NCBI GenBank assembly: GCA_023663705.1
Contig: JAMPGY010000006.1
Coordinates: 66,247 to 115,056, forward strand
Origin: Clostridium sp.
Lineage (GTDB): Bacteria; Bacteroidota; Bacteroidia; Bacteroidales; Bacteroidaceae
Reading direction: 5' to 3'
DNA: 48,810 bases
Position numbers and translations under genes: made by a program. Positions 10,917 to 21,356 of this stretch are shown piece by piece; the stretch's first letter is position 1, and every line of letters starts with the position of its first letter. Below the pieces are notes generated by a model. The model made no database searches. It saw only the letters and a program-made list of their open reading frames with translations, and was not told the DNA's origin.

Positions 10917-11052
10917 GTGAAAAGCTGCCGGATTTCGTGTGATGTCTTCAAAATCTTGTTTTTTGTGTAATGCTGCCGACAAATCAAATCTGATAAAAGA
11001 ATGTTGTTTGCATTATTTAACGTTCGGGGGGGGTAATTTTAGCTTTTGTTAT

Positions 11053-11060
11053 TATATTTG
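11053..11060 (+). promoter_or_regulatory. -7 box of the tubulin-like operon promoter
   Basis: TATATTTG matches TAnnTTTG exactly and lies 30 nt before the ATG of the first operon gene. No convincing -33 element lies 19-21 nt upstream. This is the only promoter-like sequence I found before the run of plus-strand genes that ends at 21267. Confidence 0.6.
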
Positions 11061-11090
11061 TCGCTCATAAAATAACGAAAAGCATAAACT

Positions 11091-11711
11091 ATGGGTAATT
11101 TATTAGGGTGGGGCTATCTGACGAATATCCTCGCGTATTCCATCGGCAGCCTGTTGCTGGGTATCGTGCTTACGATTGCGGGCATAGCATTAATGTTTGT
11201 ATTAATCCGTTCGTGGTGGCGCGACAGCACCTTCACCCCGATGAGTTTTCTGGTGGGCGGCATCCTGTTTTTCTTCCTTTCCTATCAGGCTATTCTGCTG
11301 TGTGGGGCAGTGACTATCAAGTCCTATTGCTCGGACTTCGAAGTGGCTGTGGACGAGATGGTGTCCCCGTTGCCCGGTTTTGTGGAAGTGCCGCAGGGGA
11401 TGACCGATCACATTCTGGATGAGGTGATAGAGCGTTGGCCGCTCATCGGCTATTATGTGGGTAGCTATGAATCGTGGGGGCATACCTCCACGGACTATGC
11501 AAAAGCCATGTCCGATGAGAGCCATCGGTTCATGAACTGGTACATCCTGCGCCGCATAGCCTGGAGCCTGGCATTTATCATAATCGGTGCCATGCTGGTC
11601 ATCAAGACCATTTCCCGTAAGTACAACAGCGGCCGTCGGCCGGAACGGGTGGTGTCCAACCGCCCGCAGGCTCCCTCGCGCGACCATCGTCCGCACGTGA
11701 GGAGAAGATAG
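11091..11711 (+). CDS. Three-helix membrane protein of the tubulin-like operon, unknown function
   Basis: This 206-residue protein matches no family I recognise. It has hydrophobic segments at about residues 17-39 (IGSLLLGIVLTIAGIALMFVL), 52-77 (SFLVGGILFFFLSYQAILL) and 152-173 (ILRRIAWSLAFIIIGAMLVI). A soluble loop of about 75 residues lies between the second and third, and the tail after residue 176 is very basic and Arg-rich (GRRPER, DHRPHVRRR). The tail probably faces the cytoplasm, where it could meet nucleic acid, lipid headgroups or the acidic tubulin-like protein. It is the first gene of the operon, 82 nt before the tubulin-like gene. A membrane anchor for the polymer is an inference from context. 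Confidence 0.8.
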   Translation: MGNLLGWGYLTNILAYSIGSLLLGIVLTIAGIALMFVLIRSWWRDSTFTPMSFLVGGILFFFLSYQAILLCGAVTIKSYCSDFEVAVDEMVSPLPGFVEVPQGMTDHILDEVIERWPLIGYYVGSYESWGHTSTDYAKAMSDESHRFMNWYILRRIAWSLAFIIIGAMLVIKTISRKYNSGRRPERVVSNRPQAPSRDHRPHVRRR

Positions 11712-11793
11712 TCCATTCGCGGATTCCACAGACGGAGTGAGGATTCGCAGATGTATTGCAATCAACGAATATACATATATATAAAAAAACGAT

Positions 11794-14700
11794 ATGACAA
11801 CACCGAATTTTTCAGTCAGCAATCATATATTGGTGGGACTGGGCGGAACGGGTGGAAAGATACTCCGCGCGTTCAAGATGAGAATGTTTGAGGAGTTTCC
11901 CACGCAGGACGAACGTAAGAAACTTCCGGTTTCCTTGCTGTATGTGGACTCTACGGATGAGATGATGCCCAAAGACGGTAAACCGCGCCCGGATTTCCGT
12001 GTGATGGGGCAGGACGCGTCTTTCACCAACAATGAATTCCTTAATATCAAGGCTGTAGATGTAGAACATATCCTCGACCATATCGGCAATTATCCTTCGG
12101 TGAAGGGAATTGTGAGCAATGTGTCGGTCGTGAAATCGGCAATCGGTTCTTTGGGGCAGGCTGCCGGACAGAAACGCCGCGCCGGCCGTTTGCTTTTTGC
12201 CGCCAATGCTGTGGGCTATGTCAACAGTCTTCGTGATGCTTATGCCCGTTGCGAGGGTGTGTCGGGCGACTCCAGCCATCTGAATATCCATATTTTTGCC
12301 GGTCTGTGTGGTGGAACAGGTTCTGGATCTATCATTGACGTTGTGGTGCAGAGTCGTAAGACATTCCCTGATGCCAAGATTTCCGTTTATGCCATGATAC
12401 CGGAGATGAATTTGCCCAAGAGCGATATGGATCAGGGACGTTACTATCAAAATGGTTATGCGGCACTCAATGAGTTGAATGCTTTGCAGGTGGGACGCTG
12501 GAATCCGCAGGATGTGACCGGTGGAGGTGAGGCGCGTCTGTATTCTGACCGTACGAAGGGAGTTGCCGATGGACTTACCGTATATAGTAACGTGAACGAA
12601 AATGGCTTAACCATCAATTCACTTACAGAGTTGCCCAAGATTGTGAGCGACTACCTGTTTGCCCGCATTTTCTTTGTGAGCGAGGAGGATGCGGTGAACG
12701 GAGACATTATTCGTTCTTACAATTTTGAGAATATGGACGACTTTGCCTTGGAGTATGATGAGGCGGCCAACCCCGATGCACAAGGCCGTATACCGGTAGC
12801 TCGTACAAAGAAAGTCAATTCCTTCGGCATCAAACGTGTGATGTATCCGGAACTGCGTGTGCTGAAACACATCACCTACACGGTGGGCGAGAGTGTGCTC
12901 TACCAGTTCAAATACAACAACTGGCGCGAGAACCAAGGTTTCGTAAACGAGGAACGCAACAAGGACTACCGCAAGGAGTATCTCAACGACGACAACCTGT
13001 CTAAATGGATGCTCGACCTGAAACACCTGACGCTCGACCAGAAGATATTGGCATCGGACTCCGATTACGCCACCTTCAACGACTATTGGCACGACAAGGC
13101 CATCATGTATGCCGAGGATGCCAAGAAGGCCGATTGTCCTCTCAATGAATTGGACAATATTATGAGCGAGTTCTTCGAGAATCACTTCCGCGAGGAAGGT
13201 GTGCTGAAGTTTTTTGCCGGCAAGGAGCGTGTCATCCCCGAACTGTCGCGCGAGATACGCCACAAGGTGGAGAACGAACTGTTCGACAAATGGAAGGTGG
13301 GCGACGTGTCCATTGTGGAGCTGCAGAAGGTGTCCAAACTGTTGCTGGAACGCATCGGCGAGATACGTACGGAGATAGAAGCGGCCTGTAAGGAAGAAGA
13401 CGAGAACTATAAGGCCTACGACCTGGACCGTAGCGACAACGTGGCCGAATGGAGCCGCCTGGGCATCCTGCAGCGTATGGTGGGTGCCGGTGCGCGCCGC
13501 TATGCCGACCATCAGGAAATCCTGACCGACTACTACACCTCCAAAACCCGGGTGATAGCACTCGACTTTGCCCGCAAACTGGCCGCCAAGGTGCTTATGG
13601 AACTGGGTAAGATGGATGCTGACATCTCAGCCTTCGCACAGAAAATCAACGAGGCGTTGGACGAGACCGAACGCCTGGTGACCGCCCAGCGCAAGGTGAA
13701 CAAGGGGCTTGAAGACATGAAAGGCGCCATCGTGGAGGTGAGCGAAGACGAGGTGATGTGCGAGTTTGAAACCGAACTGAAGGTAGATAAGATAGACATG
13801 CCTAATATTGCCCGTCAGATACGCGAGACCATTCTGCCGCAGGGCGACTTCGTGAACTTCGGACGTCTGGCAACCGATATCAGTCTGGACGATATCACGG
13901 ATGCTTTCGACATCACGCTGTCCAAGATAGTGAGAGAAAAACACGATGAGAAAGCCGAGAGCGACAAGAAAGTGCTCGGCCTGAACATCCTGACCCAACT
14001 GCAGCAGAAACTGCGCACAGACGATGAAATCAAGGCGTTTGCCTCCAAGATAGTCACCCAAAGCGGTGTGTATCTGAAACTCAATAACGACCAGATTCAG
14101 CTCCACCTGCGTAACAACGAGGGCAACTTGAGCCCCACCAATCCGGCCAGTATCAATAAAAAGGCCATATTGGTATCTATTCCTTCACCGGATGAGAACG
14201 AAGGCTTGAAAAAGTTTGCCGATAAACTGGAGGAGGCGTTCAAGAATTCGTTCAACCAGAGTACGGCCCGCACAAATATTACCGTCAACCGGAAGAGCCC
14301 GCGCAAGGACGAGCTTTCCATCATCACGGTATCTTATTGCTTCCCCGTGCGTGCCATCGAATGGATGGCGCCGTACAAAGAACGTTACGAACGCTTCCTT
14401 CACACCGGCAATCCTGCCACAGACACCGGCAACGCCATCCTACTCCATAGCGAGGGAGACGGCAGCCAATTGCCCTCGCTCTTTGCGGTGGATAATGCCG
14501 AGGAAATAGCACGCGCCGCTGCCGAAAAAGCTGCTGCCGAGGTGCAGGCACAGGCCATGGCCGGAGCACAGATCTACGGGCAGCCGATGCCCGGAATGGG
14601 CGGTGCGCAGCCCTATGCACAGCCGCTGGGCGGGCAACCTTATGGACAACCTATGGCTCAGCCTATGGGTGCTATGCACGGTGCCCAGCCGATGGGTGGA

Positions 14701-15012
14701 GCCGCCGTTCCGCCTCCGATGCCCGGTGCTCCCGTGCCTCCGCCTCCCGTAGCCCCCGTTGAACCGGAGATACAGCTCTTCATGTCGGTGGCCGGACAGC
14801 AATACGGACCGTATAACAGAGAAGTCTGCCGGCAGATGGTGACGAACGGACAATTGACTCCGCAGACGGTGGTGTGGATGGAAGGACTGCCCGCCTGGAC
14901 TCCTGCCGGACAGGTGCCGGCACTGTTGTCGCTGTTTGCGCCTCCCGCCGCTGTGCCGGGCATGCCCCCGATGCCGCCGATGGGCGGGCCTACGCCTCCC
15001 CCGATGATGTAA
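11794..15012 (+). CDS. Tubulin/FtsZ-superfamily protein with C-terminal GYF_2-like domain
   Basis: This 1072-residue cytoplasmic protein starts with a glycine-rich nucleotide loop (ILVGLGGTGGKILRAF, residues 12-27). It has the tubulin/FtsZ G-box GGTGSGS at 173-179, followed by a Rossmann-like strand (ISVYAMIPE). It resembles the Pfam family 'Tubulin like' (Tubulin_2). Residues about 300-900 are mainly helical with coiled-coil-like stretches (EIRTEIEAACKEEDE; NEALDETERLVTAQRK). Residues about 902-923 are Ala/Glu-rich, and 924-989 form a Pro/Gly/Gln/Met-rich linker with repeated GQPM and AQPM. Residues about 992-1045 look like a GYF_2 domain (QYGPYNREVCRQMVTNGQL, VWMEGLPAW), ahead of a Pro/Met-rich tail. 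GTP binding and polymer formation are inferred from the motif. Confidence 0.88.
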   Translation: MTTPNFSVSNHILVGLGGTGGKILRAFKMRMFEEFPTQDERKKLPVSLLYVDSTDEMMPKDGKPRPDFRVMGQDASFTNNEFLNIKAVDVEHILDHIGNYPSVKGIVSNVSVVKSAIGSLGQAAGQKRRAGRLLFAANAVGYVNSLRDAYARCEGVSGDSSHLNIHIFAGLCGGTGSGSIIDVVVQSRKTFPDAKISVYAMIPEMNLPKSDMDQGRYYQNGYAALNELNALQVGRWNPQDVTGGGEARLYSDRTKGVADGLTVYSNVNENGLTINSLTELPKIVSDYLFARIFFVSEEDAVNGDIIRSYNFENMDDFALEYDEAANPDAQGRIPVARTKKVNSFGIKRVMYPELRVLKHITYTVGESVLYQFKYNNWRENQGFVNEERNKDYRKEYLNDDNLSKWMLDLKHLTLDQKILASDSDYATFNDYWHDKAIMYAEDAKKADCPLNELDNIMSEFFENHFREEGVLKFFAGKERVIPELSREIRHKVENELFDKWKVGDVSIVELQKVSKLLLERIGEIRTEIEAACKEEDENYKAYDLDRSDNVAEWSRLGILQRMVGAGARRYADHQEILTDYYTSKTRVIALDFARKLAAKVLMELGKMDADISAFAQKINEALDETERLVTAQRKVNKGLEDMKGAIVEVSEDEVMCEFETELKVDKIDMPNIARQIRETILPQGDFVNFGRLATDISLDDITDAFDITLSKIVREKHDEKAESDKKVLGLNILTQLQQKLRTDDEIKAFASKIVTQSGVYLKLNNDQIQLHLRNNEGNLSPTNPASINKKAILVSIPSPDENEGLKKFADKLEEAFKNSFNQSTARTNITVNRKSPRKDELSIITVSYCFPVRAIEWMAPYKERYERFLHTGNPATDTGNAILLHSEGDGSQLPSLFAVDNAEEIARAAAEKAAAEVQAQAMAGAQIYGQPMPGMGGAQPYAQPLGGQPYGQPMAQPMGAMHGAQPMGGAAVPPPMPGAPVPPPPVAPVEPEIQLFMSVAGQQYGPYNREVCRQMVTNGQLTPQTVVWMEGLPAWTPAGQVPALLSLFAPPAAVPGMPPMPPMGGPTPPPMM

Positions 15013-15056
15013 TCTCTATGTATAATTCTATAATGTAAATACAAAAAAAAAGAAAT

Positions 15057-15923
15057 ATGGCAAGCTCAAATCGTTCGGAACGTGTACGTTTCAGATATGG
15101 AATCTGTCTGAATGACAGTTGTGAGAAGTGTAAATCCAAAGAGGTGCAGCAGATTAGTGCCCGTAAGGAATTTGTCTGTACCGATTGCGGCAAAGCGTTG
15201 CGCGAGTGCCCGCCTCCCCGGTCGTTCTGGGACAAGAACGGAAAACTGGTGGTTGGAGCGGTGGTGGTAGCGGTGGCTGCCGTGGTGGCCGGTGTGATGC
15301 TGCTGCCGGGTGGTGACAAGCACACAGAACCCGTAGAACAGGTAGACTCGTTGAAAAACATCAAATCGGAAGAGGACGGCATGGAGGTGAGCGAAGTAAA
15401 CGTGACGAAGATGGCGTTTATGGAGAAAGAGGCCGATATGCAGCTGAAACCCGGAGAAGAAAAGCAACTCAATGTCGACTGCACGCCCGGAAATGCCAAC
15501 GAATCCCTGACTTGGACGTCATCGGATAAGGCCGTGGCCACTGTGGACGAGAGTGGACGGGTGAAGGCCGTGAAGGCCGGAACAACCACGGTGACTGCCG
15601 TGGCCTCGCGCTCCAAAACGTCTGTTTCGCTGAAGGTGACGGTGAAGGAGGAGGCCAGGAAGACGGGCAATACCGGTGGCGGCGGTTCGGTGAAGAATGG
15701 ACAAGGTCACCTGGAACTGGGGTATGCCTCGTACGACGGCGATATTCAGAACGGGCAGCCTCACGGTAACGGAACCATCGTTTATAAGTCATCCCGCAAG
15801 ATTCTTCCCTCGAAGGATTATGTGGCTTCGCCGGGCGAACGCGTGGTGGGCAACTTTGCCAACGGAGTGTTACGTATGGGAACGTGGTATAAGAACGACG
15901 GTAACCAAATCGTTGTGAAGTGA
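15057..15923 (+). CDS. Zinc-ribbon / TM / Ig-like / MORN protein
   Basis: This 288-residue protein has an unusual domain order. The N-terminal cytoplasmic zinc ribbon contains Cys22-x2-Cys25 and Cys41-x2-Cys44, with further Cys17 and Cys51. A single transmembrane helix (about 63-83, LVVGAVVVAVAAVVAGVMLL) follows, then a bacterial Ig-like Big_2 domain (about 113-197; LKPGEEKQLNVDCTP, WTSSDKAVATVDESGRVKAV). It ends in a MORN-like region (about 217-288; YDGDIQNGQPHGNGTIVY). The single helix would place the zinc ribbon on the tubulin side and the Ig/MORN part in the periplasm, so it could link the two compartments. It starts 44 nt after the tubulin-like gene; its stop overlaps the next start as TGATG. 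Confidence 0.88.
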   Translation: MASSNRSERVRFRYGICLNDSCEKCKSKEVQQISARKEFVCTDCGKALRECPPPRSFWDKNGKLVVGAVVVAVAAVVAGVMLLPGGDKHTEPVEQVDSLKNIKSEEDGMEVSEVNVTKMAFMEKEADMQLKPGEEKQLNVDCTPGNANESLTWTSSDKAVATVDESGRVKAVKAGTTTVTAVASRSKTSVSLKVTVKEEARKTGNTGGGGSVKNGQGHLELGYASYDGDIQNGQPHGNGTIVYKSSRKILPSKDYVASPGERVVGNFANGVLRMGTWYKNDGNQIVVK

Positions 15924-17038
15924 TGTGCGGACGAGTGCTATACGGCTTGTGGACGGCAGCTCTGTTGTGGGGTTGCCTTCTCCCGGCTGTGGCGGCACCT
16001 GTGCGCTTTGCCACCGAACGGTTGAGAGACATGGCCGCTGTCATGCAGCTGGCCGGACTGGACACATTGTCTCCCGCTTCGGACTACCGGAGCGGATATG
16101 CCTATAATGGCCGGCCTCTGCATGTGGTGACTAATGCCTGGGGTGAGGTGTCGCACATCGGTTACCGCCTGTTCGACCCCGCTCTGAGCGTGGTGCAGCC
16201 CTCGCCGGTTTATCATTTTGTGGAGCGCTATGCCCTGGAGTTGGATTTGCCGTCGGAATACGGACGTTCACTCCGGTTGGAGCGCGACCAGGTGCATGTG
16301 AAAGGGGATTGGGGGCTACTGTCGCGCCTGGACGGAAGCGAGGAATTTGTGATTGATTGCCGCCCTTATGTCAAATATCGTCTCTGTTGGACACGGGATG
16401 GAAAGGAATTGCTGTCCATGTCGTTCAATATGGAGTGTCAGTTGCTGACGGGCTGCAATGCCAAGGAACAGGAAAGCAATCTGTTGCGTGATTTGAAGCG
16501 GACAGCCCCCTACGATGTGGTATTGCCCGGACGGCAGGAAGGTGGAGAACTGACTGTGGCGGAAGATTTCTATATCCGGCACGGTAGCAACTACATGAAC
16601 GACCGCACGCGCAACGACCTCTATTTTATGTGGAAAGAGAACGGATGGACATTGGTGGAGGATGCAGCTCATCCCTTGCAGTCGGTTGTCAATACGCTGC
16701 TGACGGGACAAACCGAACGGAATCCGCAAGTGGTGCTCACGCTGGACAAATATGGGCATGAGACCGAAAACCTGAAAATCAGTTGGAAACAATGGGTAGC
16801 CTTCTGCCGGGCAGAAGGATGTGAACTCTATTTCGGCATAAAAGACCGGACGGAGGACACCATAAGCGGAACCGTGTTTGCCGCAAACGACAAAATGGGT
16901 TACAACCATATGGTAAACGTCACCTTCCCGTTGTCGTTGTTGGAAAACGGCGACGGACAGCTGACGGGGCGGATGTATGCCTATATCCCTCTGCACAATG
17001 TGTCGGAAAAGTATTTCAAGTTTGACTATAAAAAGTAG
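15923..17038 (+). CDS. Exported protein of unknown function (tubulin-like operon)
   Basis: This 371-residue protein begins with a signal peptide (VLYGLWTAALLWGCLLPAVAA) and has no further membrane segment. No family is recognised. The mature part is mixed alpha/beta with many aromatic residues, and Cys residues at several places could form disulphides in the periplasm. I chose the ATG at 15923, which overlaps the preceding stop as TGATG, over a GTG at 15920; the overlap implies translational coupling to the zinc-ribbon protein. Its stop lies one base before the next start. The tight packing is the main reason to assign it to the tubulin-like system. Confidence 0.75.
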   Translation: MCGRVLYGLWTAALLWGCLLPAVAAPVRFATERLRDMAAVMQLAGLDTLSPASDYRSGYAYNGRPLHVVTNAWGEVSHIGYRLFDPALSVVQPSPVYHFVERYALELDLPSEYGRSLRLERDQVHVKGDWGLLSRLDGSEEFVIDCRPYVKYRLCWTRDGKELLSMSFNMECQLLTGCNAKEQESNLLRDLKRTAPYDVVLPGRQEGGELTVAEDFYIRHGSNYMNDRTRNDLYFMWKENGWTLVEDAAHPLQSVVNTLLTGQTERNPQVVLTLDKYGHETENLKISWKQWVAFCRAEGCELYFGIKDRTEDTISGTVFAANDKMGYNHMVNVTFPLSLLENGDGQLTGRMYAYIPLHNVSEKYFKFDYKK

Positions 17039-17039
17039 T

Positions 17040-17924
17040 ATGATGAAAAAAATAGGATGCCTGCTGTTGGTTTGTGCCTGTGTTGTATGCGTATGGGCGC
17101 AGGACGATACCGCCGCCCGGAAAAAGGAAATCAACAAGGTGAAAAAGAGCGACCAGTATCTTTACGGCGAGGCCACCATGGCCACGCAGGAAGAAGCGGT
17201 TTCGTTGGCCGAAGAACTGCTCTACGACAATATCAACCGATGGGTGGCCGAACAGAAGAAATTGAGCAAGGCCAACAAAGTAGTGGTGATGAACACCAAA
17301 CAGTTGTGGGGAAACATCGAATTGCCGCGTGGCAATATGTTCCGCGCATTCTACTATGTGAAAAAGGCGGATATCCTGCCGGCGGAAAATACCAATGTGA
17401 TAGAAAAAGGGGAGAGACGGCCTGTGGGGCAAGGAACAAAGGTGGAACCTCTGACAGCAGAAGAACTTTCCGTCAGTCCGGTGGTTGAACAACCGAAGGT
17501 AGACGTGCAGCCGATTGTGACAGAGCAGCCGGTGGTGGCCGAACAGCCGCTGGCAACTGAACCTGTGGTGACAGAGCCGGTGAAACCTGTGCCTGAGGGG
17601 CAGACACCGGCAGTGGTGCCGGCAGCAGCACCCGAAATACCGCAGTGGCCGCCAGTGGTGAACGAAGTGGCCGCCATCACGGACTTCAACAAGTTGCAGG
17701 CCTGTCTGAACCGCTTGAAAGCAGAAGGCAAGGTTACGGATTTCAATAAATATGCTGCTCTGAAAGATAAGAATGCTTATTATCTGATTGTATACAATAA
17801 GGAAGCCAGGATTGAGGCCGTGCTGAGTACTGGACCTTCGCGCCGCAACGTGAAGACCGGGCAGGCCGACGGTGTGGAAAACTATGCCGGTCGCGGTGCC
17901 ATAGGTTTCCGTATTAACGAATAA
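17040..17924 (+). CDS. Exported protein with Pro/Val/Glu-rich linker (tubulin-like operon)
   Basis: This 294-residue protein has a signal peptide (IGCLLLVCACVVCVWAQ), an alpha-helical N-terminal domain to about residue 115 (ATMATQEEAVSLAEELLYDN is reminiscent of LPP20-like domains, weakly), and a linker of about 70 residues. The linker repeats short units such as VVEQP, VVTEP and VVAEQP. A compact C-terminal domain of about 85 residues follows (FNKLQACLNRLKAEGKVTDF). Such linkers often span a distance in the envelope. A longer frame opens at 16977 inside the previous gene, but the signal peptide begins at the ATG at 17040, so that start is used. The next gene starts 18 nt later. Confidence 0.78.
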   Translation: MMKKIGCLLLVCACVVCVWAQDDTAARKKEINKVKKSDQYLYGEATMATQEEAVSLAEELLYDNINRWVAEQKKLSKANKVVVMNTKQLWGNIELPRGNMFRAFYYVKKADILPAENTNVIEKGERRPVGQGTKVEPLTAEELSVSPVVEQPKVDVQPIVTEQPVVAEQPLATEPVVTEPVKPVPEGQTPAVVPAAAPEIPQWPPVVNEVAAITDFNKLQACLNRLKAEGKVTDFNKYAALKDKNAYYLIVYNKEARIEAVLSTGPSRRNVKTGQADGVENYAGRGAIGFRINE

Positions 17925-17942
17925 AATAAAAAAGGGGAAATA

Positions 17943-18941
17943 ATGAAAAGATATATCATTACATTATGCGGACTGTGGATGGGACTTGTATTTCTGTCGG
18001 CACAGACCGTGGTGGTGACACTCACCGTTGACGAACACAGCAGCCGTCCGGTAGTCCTCGGGCGCCTGCAGGACAATCTCTCTGCTTTGCTTACGGAAAT
18101 CAATGCGGCGCAGAAGGCCAACCGTGACCTCAATATTGTGGGGCTCCCGCTGAATGACTTTGCCAAAAAATCGCTTACGATGATGTGGGCCAACATTCAT
18201 TTCTATTGCGATGACGAGGAAGTGGTGGATCGCTGCTGGGTGTTTGAGGATAGCTACATGGTGAGGCAGATACCGTTGATTATCACACCGGAAGGAGAAT
18301 CATTCGGTAGCGGAACCTATCAGGAGGCCGTGGTGGACTTCGACCGCAACGGCAACATCACCGACTTCCGTTTTGCTCTGGATGCCCAGCTGGCCGAGGG
18401 TATGGAACGTTGCGGAGCCGAAGTGGAGGAAGACCGCCGCATGATGATTCTGCAGAACTGCGAACGCTTCCGCACGGCTTACAACACCAAGGATCTCGAC
18501 TTTCTGAAACTGATTTTCAGTGATGACGCCCTGATTATCACCGGTAGTGTGGTGATGGCCAAGCCCACCGAAAACAGTATCGGCGGCCAGAAGGTTGTGT
18601 ATAAGAAGCAAACCAAGCAACAGTATATATCCAATCTGCAGCGTGCCTTCGTTCGCAACAAGTGGATAGACGTGAAATTCAGTCAGATTGGCGACAATGG
18701 AGAGCAGGGCGGATGCCCCGGCATCACACGCTCGTCGGTCAATCCCAATATGTATGGGGTGCGCTTGCGCCAGGAATGGCGCTCGAGCAACTACAACGAC
18801 GAGGGTTATCTGTTTCTGTTGTGGGATTTCACCGATGAAGCCAAACCGGTGATTCATGTGCGCACCTGGCAGCCCGAATGGGTGGGCGGGGAGAAGTTGC
18901 CCGACAACGAGATATTCTCACTGACAGACTTTGACTTATGA
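17943..18941 (+). CDS. Exported protein with NTF2-like C-terminal domain (tubulin-like operon)
   Basis: This 332-residue protein has a signal peptide (YIITLCGLWMGLVFLSAQ). Residues about 22-150 form a beta-rich region of unknown family. Residues about 165-320 resemble a SnoaL/NTF2-like cone: a long first helix (NCERFRTAYNTKDLDFLKLIFSDDALI) and curved strands ending in FLLWDFTDEAKPVIHVRTWQPE. NTF2-like domains bind small ligands or act as protein-interaction modules; no catalytic residues can be assigned. Its last codon overlaps the next gene's first ATG as ATGA (18938-18941), a sign of coupled translation. Confidence 0.78.
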   Translation: MKRYIITLCGLWMGLVFLSAQTVVVTLTVDEHSSRPVVLGRLQDNLSALLTEINAAQKANRDLNIVGLPLNDFAKKSLTMMWANIHFYCDDEEVVDRCWVFEDSYMVRQIPLIITPEGESFGSGTYQEAVVDFDRNGNITDFRFALDAQLAEGMERCGAEVEEDRRMMILQNCERFRTAYNTKDLDFLKLIFSDDALIITGSVVMAKPTENSIGGQKVVYKKQTKQQYISNLQRAFVRNKWIDVKFSQIGDNGEQGGCPGITRSSVNPNMYGVRLRQEWRSSNYNDEGYLFLLWDFTDEAKPVIHVRTWQPEWVGGEKLPDNEIFSLTDFDL

Positions 18942-20473
18942 TTTCAACAAAACAGAACGACATGACAAAGAGACTTTTCGTGGCTTTGGCCGGTTGGCTC
19001 CTTGTGGCATACCTTTCGGCACAAAGCAACTACTTCTACAACTACCAGTTGAAGTCGGAAAGCAAAAGTGTGGCGCTCAACGGAAAGTCGCAATTGGTAG
19101 TTGTGTCTCCCCACAACGACCTGACGGCTGTTTTTGCCGGCAATGCAACGGTTCGGCTTGGTGCGCCAAAGGCTGTGAAAGACGGGTTGTATAGGTATAC
19201 GACACTTATTGACCTCTCTGCCGGAAAAGAAATAAAGGCGACTTTCGCTCGCAAGGGCTCTGCGCTGCAGACAGAGTTGAAGGAAGTGCTGAAACCCAAT
19301 TATAGTGTCACCTACAAGGTGGAAGAGGTGCAGACCCCCATCAGCCTGGATAACCAGACCGGCCGCAACATGAGTAGCAAGGTGCATGGCGAATCCGATC
19401 TGGAGTTCACTACCACTATTGAAGGACTTGAGGTGACGGTCAGCCCGGCATTGAAAAGCAGAATGACCCATTCACGCACGGCGGCCGGTGCCTATGTGAC
19501 AACCGTGAGCATAGCTATGGAAGCACTGAAGGCCAAACAGGCGGATTTGCAGGCTGTGGAACAGGAATATGCCGTGCTGACACAAGAACTCAACGAAGGA
19601 AAGATAACGGCTGATGATGTGGCTAAACTGGACCGTCAGGAAGAACTGGAGAAGAAGGTGGAAGAACTGAGCGCCGAATATGCCTCGATGTGCCAGGTGA
19701 CCGTGTCGGCACCCAAGAGCAACACGCTGGTGGTCTCTATCGAAGATTTGGCCGAAAATGAGCGGAGAGCCTATGCCGTGCTGCTGATGAAACAGATAGA
19801 GGAGAAATACAATACGAGCTACGATCAATATCTGTCCAACGCTCTGGCATCGGCAAAGACCTACAAATACAAGGCTGCCGCAGATTTCTACCGTCAGGCG
19901 GCAGAAGCTCCGGATGCTCCTGCGGACGGGAAGGCAACCTGTGCGGCCAGAGCTGCGGATATGGACAATTGTTTCGGTTGTATGGATATGGCCAACAAGG
20001 CTCTTCGCCGTCTGAAAACGGAGAAGGAGAAAGGTAGGATGGTGGACTACGGACTGCTGGAGGAATGCTACAACGTGGCGATTAAGAACTACGTGAGTCT
20101 GTATGAACTGACCAAGGACGAGGAGTTTGAAAAACGTGCGGACACGCTGGAAGAGGCTTTCCGTAAATTGGGCCTTGTGGTGGAAGGCAATGTGGTGGGC
20201 ACGGATTTCAAGGGCGGTGTTCTGCAGGAGGAGCCGGTGACCGGAGTGGATATCTATGCCACACCGGCCGGCAGCCGCGGTGTGGAAAAAGGAACCGCAG
20301 GCGACAAGGTCGGCTCGGTGGACGCGAAGGGGCACTACCACGTACAGTTGGAGCGCGGTAAATACGAAGGTCTGCTGTTTGTTCCCGTATCGCTCAAGGG
20401 ATACAAGAAAAACGCCTGGCAGAGTATCAAGGAGCAAAGACATGCCAAGATAGATGTGAAATTATACAAGTAA
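18938..20473 (+). CDS. Exported coiled-coil protein with beta C-terminal domain (tubulin-like operon)
   Basis: This 511-residue protein has a signal sequence whose core is LFVALAGWLLVAYLSAQ. The first about 170 mature residues are beta-rich. A coiled coil follows near residues 188-250 (ALKAKQADLQAVEQEYAVLTQELNEG; EELEKKVEELSAEYASM). A helical TPR-like region (about 280-395) comes next, and a C-terminal beta domain (about 405-511; TGVDIYATPAG, GSVDAKGHYHVQL) resembles transthyretin-like/CarboxypepD_reg folds. The function is unknown. The start at 18938 overlaps the preceding stop as ATGA; an ATG at 18962 would give a more standard signal peptide and cannot be excluded. Confidence 0.75.
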   Translation: MISTKQNDMTKRLFVALAGWLLVAYLSAQSNYFYNYQLKSESKSVALNGKSQLVVVSPHNDLTAVFAGNATVRLGAPKAVKDGLYRYTTLIDLSAGKEIKATFARKGSALQTELKEVLKPNYSVTYKVEEVQTPISLDNQTGRNMSSKVHGESDLEFTTTIEGLEVTVSPALKSRMTHSRTAAGAYVTTVSIAMEALKAKQADLQAVEQEYAVLTQELNEGKITADDVAKLDRQEELEKKVEELSAEYASMCQVTVSAPKSNTLVVSIEDLAENERRAYAVLLMKQIEEKYNTSYDQYLSNALASAKTYKYKAAADFYRQAAEAPDAPADGKATCAARAADMDNCFGCMDMANKALRRLKTEKEKGRMVDYGLLEECYNVAIKNYVSLYELTKDEEFEKRADTLEEAFRKLGLVVEGNVVGTDFKGGVLQEEPVTGVDIYATPAGSRGVEKGTAGDKVGSVDAKGHYHVQLERGKYEGLLFVPVSLKGYKKNAWQSIKEQRHAKIDVKLYK

Positions 20474-20499
20474 TACTAACTAAACAAAAAATCCAATCA

Positions 20500-21267
20500 A
20501 TGAAACATGTAATGAAATTGAGCCTGCTGGCTTTGACATTCCTGATGTGTGTGCCGGCTTTTGCCGACAAGAAGGAAAAGCAGAAGAAGGAGAAGAAACC
20601 CTACGAATGGGTGATGCCCGAACTGACCGGAAACGAGAGCTTTGACAAATATCTGCTCACCTGTGACACGATGTTCAGCCGGGTGAAATCTTATAAGGAT
20701 GGCATAACCTTTTATGAAGTGAAGAAAATCCAGATCATGGATGCGAACGGTGCCGTGATGACGGATGAGAATGGAAATCCCAAGGAGGTGTATGTCGTGG
20801 TGGACGAAAATAACACCATCCGTGGTGCCGGACAGGCTCTGGCACAGTATCTGCAGATGACATTAGCCGGTACAAATCTGGTACTCGATATGGCCAATGT
20901 CACTCTGCTCACCGCCAGTGCCACAACGGCGCTGCCCAGTCTGGGATTGGGAGCCATCAGCTACGGCAAGTATGTGAAGGCCGGTCCGAAACTCGTAGGT
21001 ATGGCCTCTTCCGAAATCAAAGGTATCGTGAAGGATTGCCGTGCACAGGCGCGCAGCATCAAAGCTTACAAAAAGAATTTCTCGGAGAAAGGTGAACTGC
21101 TGAATCCTCAGGCCGACCCGTCGGACATCGACGGCACGAACTTTGCCGATGTGCCTGTGGTGCAGAAGCCCCAGGCCGAATATGAGAAGGAGATTCTGTC
21201 GGCAGCGGAGGAAGACAAGAACGCTGAACCGACAGACGATGATGCCTTCAACGACATGGATTTCTAA
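20500..21267 (+). CDS. Exported protein of unknown function, last gene of tubulin-like operon
   Basis: This 255-residue protein has a signal peptide (LSLLALTFLMCVPAFA), then a strongly basic stretch (DKKEKQKKEKKPYEW) and an alpha/beta core (YVVVDENNTIRGAGQALAQYLQ). An Ala/Thr/Leu/Gly-rich segment (about 120-155, including NVTLLTASATTALPSLGLGAISYG) could be a second hydrophobic helix or amphipathic hairpin. The tail is very acidic (AAEEDKNAEPTDDDAFNDMDF). Opposite charges at the two ends are a visible oddity. I recognise no family. It starts 26 nt after the previous gene and is followed by the strong hairpin at 21309-21356. Confidence 0.75.
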   Translation: MKHVMKLSLLALTFLMCVPAFADKKEKQKKEKKPYEWVMPELTGNESFDKYLLTCDTMFSRVKSYKDGITFYEVKKIQIMDANGAVMTDENGNPKEVYVVVDENNTIRGAGQALAQYLQMTLAGTNLVLDMANVTLLTASATTALPSLGLGAISYGKYVKAGPKLVGMASSEIKGIVKDCRAQARSIKAYKKNFSEKGELLNPQADPSDIDGTNFADVPVVQKPQAEYEKEILSAAEEDKNAEPTDDDAFNDMDF

Positions 21268-21308: not shown

Positions 21309-21356
21309 AACAAAAGAAACGGTATGGCCGATACGGTCAATACCGTTTCTTTTGTT
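21309..21356 (+). terminator. Strong terminator hairpin closing the tubulin-like operon
   Basis: The arms AACAAAAGAAACGGTAT (21309-21325) and its exact complement (21340-21356) give 17 perfect base pairs, with extra inner pairing. The 3' arm is T-rich, and the AT-rich base lets it work on either strand. It directly abuts the promoter of the next gene. Confidence 0.85.

Follow-up and report, generated by a model that had tools for sequence, protein, structure and literature searches.

The stretch of DNA analysed here (the window; 48,810 nucleotides, positions 66,247 to 115,056 of contig JAMPGY010000006.1, assembly GCA_023663705.1, from a gut bacterium deposited as Clostridium sp. and placed by GTDB in the Bacteroidaceae) contains eight tightly spaced plus-strand genes, g1 to g8, which form one operon around a tubulin-like protein. 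A preliminary description of this DNA had proposed such an eight-gene operon with a strong terminator, and this was confirmed, as the coordinates hold and the inverted repeat of the terminator is perfect (Table 1). The candidate promoter element was recognised by TAnnTTTG, the Bacteroidales-type consensus, and a sigma70-like promoter match (9/12) was found at 11046-11073. To judge from the sequence, with transmembrane (TM) segments called by hydrophobicity, the proposed layout of a cytosolic tubulin, membrane proteins and exported proteins is likewise borne out. When the eight proteins were scanned against Pfam down to E 0.1, using the curated cut-offs, g1 and g4-g8 (six of the eight) had no family above cut-off, and in NCBIfam nothing exceeded its cut-offs for any of the eight. 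A comparison of g1-g7 with the congener locus L053 gave dN/dS values of 0.17, 0.03, 0.11, 0.07, 0.07, 0.05 and 0.10, with synonymous sites near saturation, and g8 is intact in the same congener (76% identity to g8 of the window).

Table 1. Features of the operon (positions within the window; topology and export are predicted)
Feature	Position	Strand	Remark
Candidate promoter -7 element TATATTTG	11053..11060	+	fits Bacteroidales-type TAnnTTTG consensus
g1: inner-membrane protein, 206 aa, 3 predicted TM segments	11091..11711	+	
g2: FtsZl1/Tubulin_2 protein, 1072 aa	11794..15012	+	
g3: predicted single-pass protein, zinc-ribbon-like N-terminus, Big_2 + MORN-like outer part	15057..15923	+	
g4: exported protein (predicted), 371 aa	15923..17038	+	
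g5: exported protein (predicted)	17040..17924	+	
g6: exported protein (predicted), 332 aa	17943..18941	+	
g7: exported protein (predicted), weak TPR-like stretch	18962..20473	+	
g8: exported protein (predicted), accessory	20500..21267	+	
Intrinsic terminator: perfect 17-nt inverted repeat, T-rich arm at end	21309..21356	+	closes operon

The g2 protein matched Tubulin_2 (PF13809) with 167.4 bits against a curated cut-off of 27, and its GTP-binding motifs are intact in sequence, with GLGGTGG in loop T1 and GGTGSGS in loop T4. Among 77 g2 proteins of at least 700 aa in named records, the T4 motif GG[TS]G[ST]G was present in 75 and T1 in 72; the two relatives without T4 were one truncated by a contig end (L110) and one read from a far upstream start (L109). 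The middle region of g2 contains no named domain, and the C-terminus consists of a Pro-rich linker followed by a GYF_2 domain (53.9 bits, residues 996-1044). No TM segment was found in g2 by hydrophobicity. On the tree the GYF-bearing proteins form a single clade (50 of 73 rows), and other lineages have different C-termini. A role as the cell-division FtsZ was rejected, with PF00091 reaching 16.5 bits against a cut-off of 33; a distinct ftsZ gene was found on contig C3 (PF00091, 1e-44), and the host genome has a single Tubulin_2 gene. Elsewhere, the congener G003 carries two tandem g2 genes in one operon (774 and 1032 aa; L054:6087-11522), genome G009 has a second g2 relative with 34% identity and two terminal GYF-like repeats that is cut at the contig start (L055:3-3035), and the g2 of G421 reads as two pieces of 755 and 265 aa (L070:7435-10563), a sign that this gene is either broken or misassembled.

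The conservation of the operon was measured in a locus set made up of the best 80 of 306 stretches that were confirmed by the g2 profile in the genome collection. Their taxonomic labels were nearly all Bacteroidales or Bacteroidetes and included Paraprevotella, Prevotella, Bacteroides, Phocaeicola, Xylanibacter brevis, Parabacteroides, Tannerellaceae, Muribaculaceae and others. Partners were counted in six frames, with the loci whose contig reaches the gene as denominator. Besides g2 (80/80), we found g1 in 67/75 loci, g3 in 74/74, g4 in 69/70, g5 in 65/68 and g6, the best kept exported partner, in 66/66, followed by g7 in 55/62 loci, where it is variable, and g8 in 37/60. The full complement of five partners was present in 57 of the 65 contigs that span g1-g6, and all 57 had the same gene order; the remaining eight had no match to g1, g4 or g5. 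The flanking genes were variable. The commonest flank family occurred in 12 of 93 loci and is itself exported and located at the 3′ end, and the second and third commonest (8 and 7 of 93 loci) likewise lie downstream. Ten downstream proteins were scanned, and PEGA, FGE-sulfatase, Sel1 and WG modules were among the matches, with two proteins having no family; in other loci proteins of these four types occupy the g7 position or lie further downstream. Judged by gene content and order, g1-g6 are thus a conserved and colinear unit, followed at the 3′ end by exported proteins that vary. Two loci labelled Lachnospiraceae and Elusimicrobia (L128 and L152) carry a Bacteroidales-type operon and are probably binning errors.

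Next to this set, 393 genomes drawn from the order were searched with the profiles for g4, g6, the g3 module and Tubulin_2. In separate searches g4 was found in 15 genomes and g6 in 49, and in all 15 g4 genomes g6 lay within 1.5 kb of g4 on the same contig. Co-occurrence of homologues had been set beforehand as the test of a single system, and both this pairing and the 57 colinear loci bear out that claim. By type, the 15 comprised eight tubulin loci (in one of them, G274, the tubulin is on a contig other than that of g4), one TIR locus, one kinase locus and five with another exported gene upstream. In these last five genomes (G146, G326, G327, G390 and G396) a different exported-looking gene precedes g4; two of the five loci were scanned, and the upstream gene matched Sel1 with 35 bits in L196 and below threshold in L198, where a TIR_2-Sel1 gene adjoins the unit on the opposite strand.

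The structural model of g4 was confident (pLDDT 91.9), with a C-terminus that is weakly NTF2-like. The N-terminus of g5 matched a domain that in other genomes is fused to a g6-type domain, where LPP20 scored weakly (18.4 bits against a cut-off of 25.9). Because one open reading frame (ORF) runs from a g5-like N-terminus to a g6-like C-terminus in six of the eight loci read of the large-g6-protein class, g5 can be tied to g6. The members of that class (L200-L206 and L209) are proteins of about 600 aa with a g5-like N-terminus and a g6-type domain, an envelope pair in genomes without a Tubulin_2 match, and in several of these loci the adjoining exported proteins have a g7-like match. Among the loci scanned, g1 was found only in tubulin loci.

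The g3 protein appears to link the two sides of the system. It begins with a Cys-rich, zinc-ribbon-like N-terminus, followed by a juxtamembrane LRECPPP motif, one TM segment, a Big_2 domain and a MORN-like outer part; in Pfam, Big_2 was above its cut-off and MORN and the zinc ribbon were below theirs. A profile of the TM segment and outer module, with inclusion at E 0.001 and a strong class at E<1e-10, matched 26 of the 393 genomes, of which 11 were strong and the remaining 15 weak, at 6e-5 or above. The 11 strong genomes contained seven tubulin loci, three TIR loci and one kinase locus. The g6 gene was adjacent on the contig in ten of them, and in the eleventh, G274, the contig ends.

In the TIR and kinase loci, the TM segment and outer half of g3 are fused to a TIR domain (three genomes) or a Ser/Thr kinase (one genome), in place of the inner half of g3 and the tubulin, together with g1. 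The gene overlapping g4 in G058 (L193) encodes in a single ORF a TIR_2 domain (3.5e-14), a TM segment and a g3-type outer part (profile positions 54-225, 4e-29). In G174 (L195) a single ORF joins a kinase that has HFDIKPDN and DFG motifs (4.7e-28) to a TM segment and a g3-type outer part (4e-26), and the gene is followed by g4, g5 and g6. G091 and G420 (L207 and L208), both of one genus, have TIR-TM-MORN genes before g6 without g4, with TIR_2 at 36.6 bits in L208 and at 27.6 bits, just below the cut-off of 28, in L207. In these four loci g6 was thus adjacent in all and g4 in two, and Tubulin_2 had no match in any of the four genomes. More broadly, neither g1 nor g2 matched among the called ORFs of 18 loci, L193-L210 (L199 and L210 are short), and Tubulin_2 was unmatched in 17 of the 18 genomes, the exception being G396, which has another Tubulin_2 class. 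A search of 335 genomes of the phylum gave one further strong match to the g3 module, L244, which has a different N-terminus before the module and then g4, g5, g6 and a PEGA protein; g1 was not matched in it. The converse exchange was seen on a Paraburkholderia megaplasmid, where the gene after g2 (6e-178) encodes a protein whose similarity to g3 is confined to the zinc-ribbon and TM half (4e-12) and whose outer part has TPRs instead.

By its domain content g3 is therefore a modular single-pass protein, the outer half of which goes with g4 and g6 and the inner half with the tubulin. Since the two halves are swapped independently of one another in this way, we read g3 as what looks like a coupler, with an envelope complex on one side and cytosolic modules that can be exchanged on the other. 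At the LRECPPP site at least three prolines were present in 44 of 51 loci with a GYF domain in g2 vs six of 24 without, and the GYF domain could possibly dock on this motif. However, the GYF rows are one clade, and this removes most of the weight of the association.

We therefore favour, at a probability of roughly one half, the interpretation that the operon encodes an envelope-spanning signalling system in which the tubulin would serve as the GTP-binding module. TIR domains and kinases are known to work in signalling or as effectors, and by analogy the tubulin module that takes their place most likely does signalling work. A more specific version is put forward with somewhat less confidence: a modular platform of the Bacteroidota, with an exported g4-g5-g6 complex, the g3 coupler and an interchangeable output (FtsZ/tubulin GTPase, TIR or Ser/Thr kinase), in which the tubulin would be a switch or effector and not a cytoskeleton. 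In the favoured interpretation, the exported g4-g6, with proteins of the g7 and g8 type, would sense or assemble on an envelope cue, and g3 would transmit this state through the inner membrane. The g1 protein and the zinc-ribbon and Pro-rich inner tail of g3 would hold the FtsZl1 protein at the membrane, in the clade of the window perhaps with the GYF domain of g2 as the tether. The FtsZl1 protein would then bind GTP and switch or assemble, as the counterpart of the TIR domain or kinase in the sister systems, and signals could pass outside-in or inside-out. What the sequences show directly is the conservation, the gene order, the domain swaps and the intact GTP loops; how the proteins lie in the membrane, that they form a complex and bind GTP, which way signals run and what the cue is are all inferred.

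Several observations weigh against the signalling interpretation. Only 4 of the 393 genomes carry a TIR or kinase fusion; G091 and G420, which account for two of the three TIR cases, belong to one genus and have no g4, and the TIR_2 match of L207 is sub-threshold. The GYF-proline association comes from one clade, as GYF arose once on the tree, and the prolines are also present in six of the 24 non-GYF loci. No cytosolic module was seen by eye within the unit in the five g4 genomes with another exported gene upstream, nor in the eight large-g6-protein loci, and the envelope complex must therefore do something without one. Finally, the partner profiles were built from the same 80 loci that were counted, plus 20 more, so weak or faint matches lean towards presence.

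An alternative is a machine for membrane remodelling, or for envelope building and secretion, in which FtsZl1 filaments under the inner membrane would act on a transenvelope complex by pushing, positioning or scaffolding it, and this complex would make or display the exported proteins of the g7 and g8 type. Remodelling is the role proposed for FtsZl1 proteins in the text of Makarova and Koonin (2010; PMC2875224). In its favour, the exported genes at the 3′ end differ between loci and, where scanned, encode repeat or binding-type modules (PEGA, FGE-sulfatase, WG, Sel1), and some g8 homologues match glycine zippers, as cargo might. Yet a reviewer quoted with that paper (PMC2875224) doubted that a cytosolic filament remodels membranes with periplasmic partners and proposed transport or signalling, and filament formation by FtsZl1 proteins was left open in the text. 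The preliminary description had leaned towards an envelope or secretion role, and this was not supported: no secretion, vWA, OmpA or GTPase component besides the tubulin was found among the operon proteins with Pfam, and a structural role is hard to reconcile with the replacement of the tubulin part by a TIR domain or kinase, which points to signalling instead. We consider this alternative unlikely.

A still less likely alternative to a signalling system is that the operon serves in anti-phage defence or inter-bacterial conflict: the envelope part would detect an attack, and the cytosolic tubulin, TIR domain or kinase would be the effector. TIR, kinase and tubulin modules are all discussed in the text of a survey of conflict systems (PMC7159879), and the patchy distribution of Tubulin_2 would suit such a role: of the 393 genomes from the order, 20 have a match, 16 of them above cut-off, and these include other Tubulin_2 classes. 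A TIR-TPR gene and a TrkA_N-RyR gene adjoin the TIR version of the system (L193:14473-17677). Another class of Tubulin_2 is found with vWA and brxL genes on three of three Thermales plasmids read (L252, L253 and L254), in the order vWA, Tubulin_2, hypothetical, brxL, with an insertion sequence (IS) element before brxL in L254 and HmaC-like and DUF1156 genes nearby in L252; from this context that Thermales class may belong to phage defence. On the other hand, a scan with PADLOC 2.0.0 at E 0.01 gave no family for any of the eight proteins of the window, the PADLOC matches of the TIR protein of L193 and the kinase protein of L195 span those domains only, and the TIR protein of L208 had none. Relatives were not found in viral contigs, and inspection by eye recognised no mobile gene in the list of 14 recurring flank families and placed several loci among housekeeping genes. 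Chance clustering of unrelated genes, which six proteins without a Pfam family above cut-off might have suggested, is refuted by the neighbourhood counts and has hardly any probability left, given the order kept in every complete locus, the tight gene spacing and the joining of g5-like and g6-type parts in one ORF.

The name FtsZl1 and the suggested role in membrane remodelling date from 2010, and the texts consulted here give no experimental function for these tubulins. The same coupler with a zinc ribbon and tubulin, a TIR domain or a kinase opens the question of function to direct testing, because TIR and kinase outputs have known assays (NAD loss and phosphorylation) that could serve as readouts for the cue of the envelope complex, after which the tubulin could be studied under the same cue. 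If the signalling interpretation is true, gut and rumen bacteria would use tubulin-fold GTPases as plug-in signalling modules alongside TIR domains and kinases.

Other systems share single elements with this operon. GltJ of the Myxococcus gliding complex is an inner-membrane protein with a zinc ribbon and a GYF domain facing a GTPase. The NCBIfam model gliding_GltJ aligned with residues 995-1055 of g2 at 20.8 bits; this covers the GYF part only, against a cut-off of 450, and g2 was rejected as a GltJ. No other Glt family was among the NCBIfam matches of the eight proteins. Other Tubulin_2 loci of the order, L065 and L058, have the same Tubulin_2 domain, and g2 matched them weakly (3e-4 and 2e-6). 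In contrast to the operon described here, their neighbours are HSP70-like and trypsin-like proteins in L065 and vWA and papain-type proteins in L058, with one locus per type scanned. L058 belongs with L067 and L069 to another Tubulin_2 class, and its tubulin is flanked by papain-domain and vWA proteins. Tubulins and kinases are themes of the GAP1-N2 DO-GTPase conflict systems in the text of Kaur et al. 2020 (PMC7159879). Unlike those systems, the eight proteins contained no P-loop GTPase family in Pfam (no DO-GTPase or GAP1 model was run), and the constant part here is the envelope complex, with g3 as the coupler.

The closest comparison is with the FtsZl1 family and its multi-gene, membrane-linked operons, described in 2010 by Makarova and Koonin (PMC2875224); the tubulin is therefore not new. 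In the text of that paper the family alignment includes a Bacteroides caccae protein, the majority of members have an extended coiled coil and a mostly helical C-terminal domain, and vWA, GTPase, kinase and OmpA proteins are frequent, but not universal, operon partners. A 2023 study rooted its tree with Tubulin_2 proteins, according to its text (PMC9871819). Like FtsZl1, g2 clearly belongs to Tubulin_2, having T1, T4 and a long extension, and membrane and exported proteins accompany it as in the operons of PMC2875224. The operon differs from these in that Pfam, down to E 0.1, gave no match to vWA, P-loop GTPase, kinase or OmpA families, and from FtsZl1 in general in the GYF domain at the C-terminus of g2 and in the partners g1 and g3-g8. 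Some of these partners may be among the unnamed families A1-A2 and B1-B9 in the figures and supplements of PMC2875224. The operon had been called a candidate undescribed system in the preliminary description. This holds in part: it has to be given up for the FtsZl1 protein and its operons, and no description of this operon, its partner families or the TIR and kinase versions was found in the open-access literature. What is added here is the system as a whole, with its partners, their order and the swaps, built around a tubulin, and on an idea of FtsZl1 operons, that were already known.

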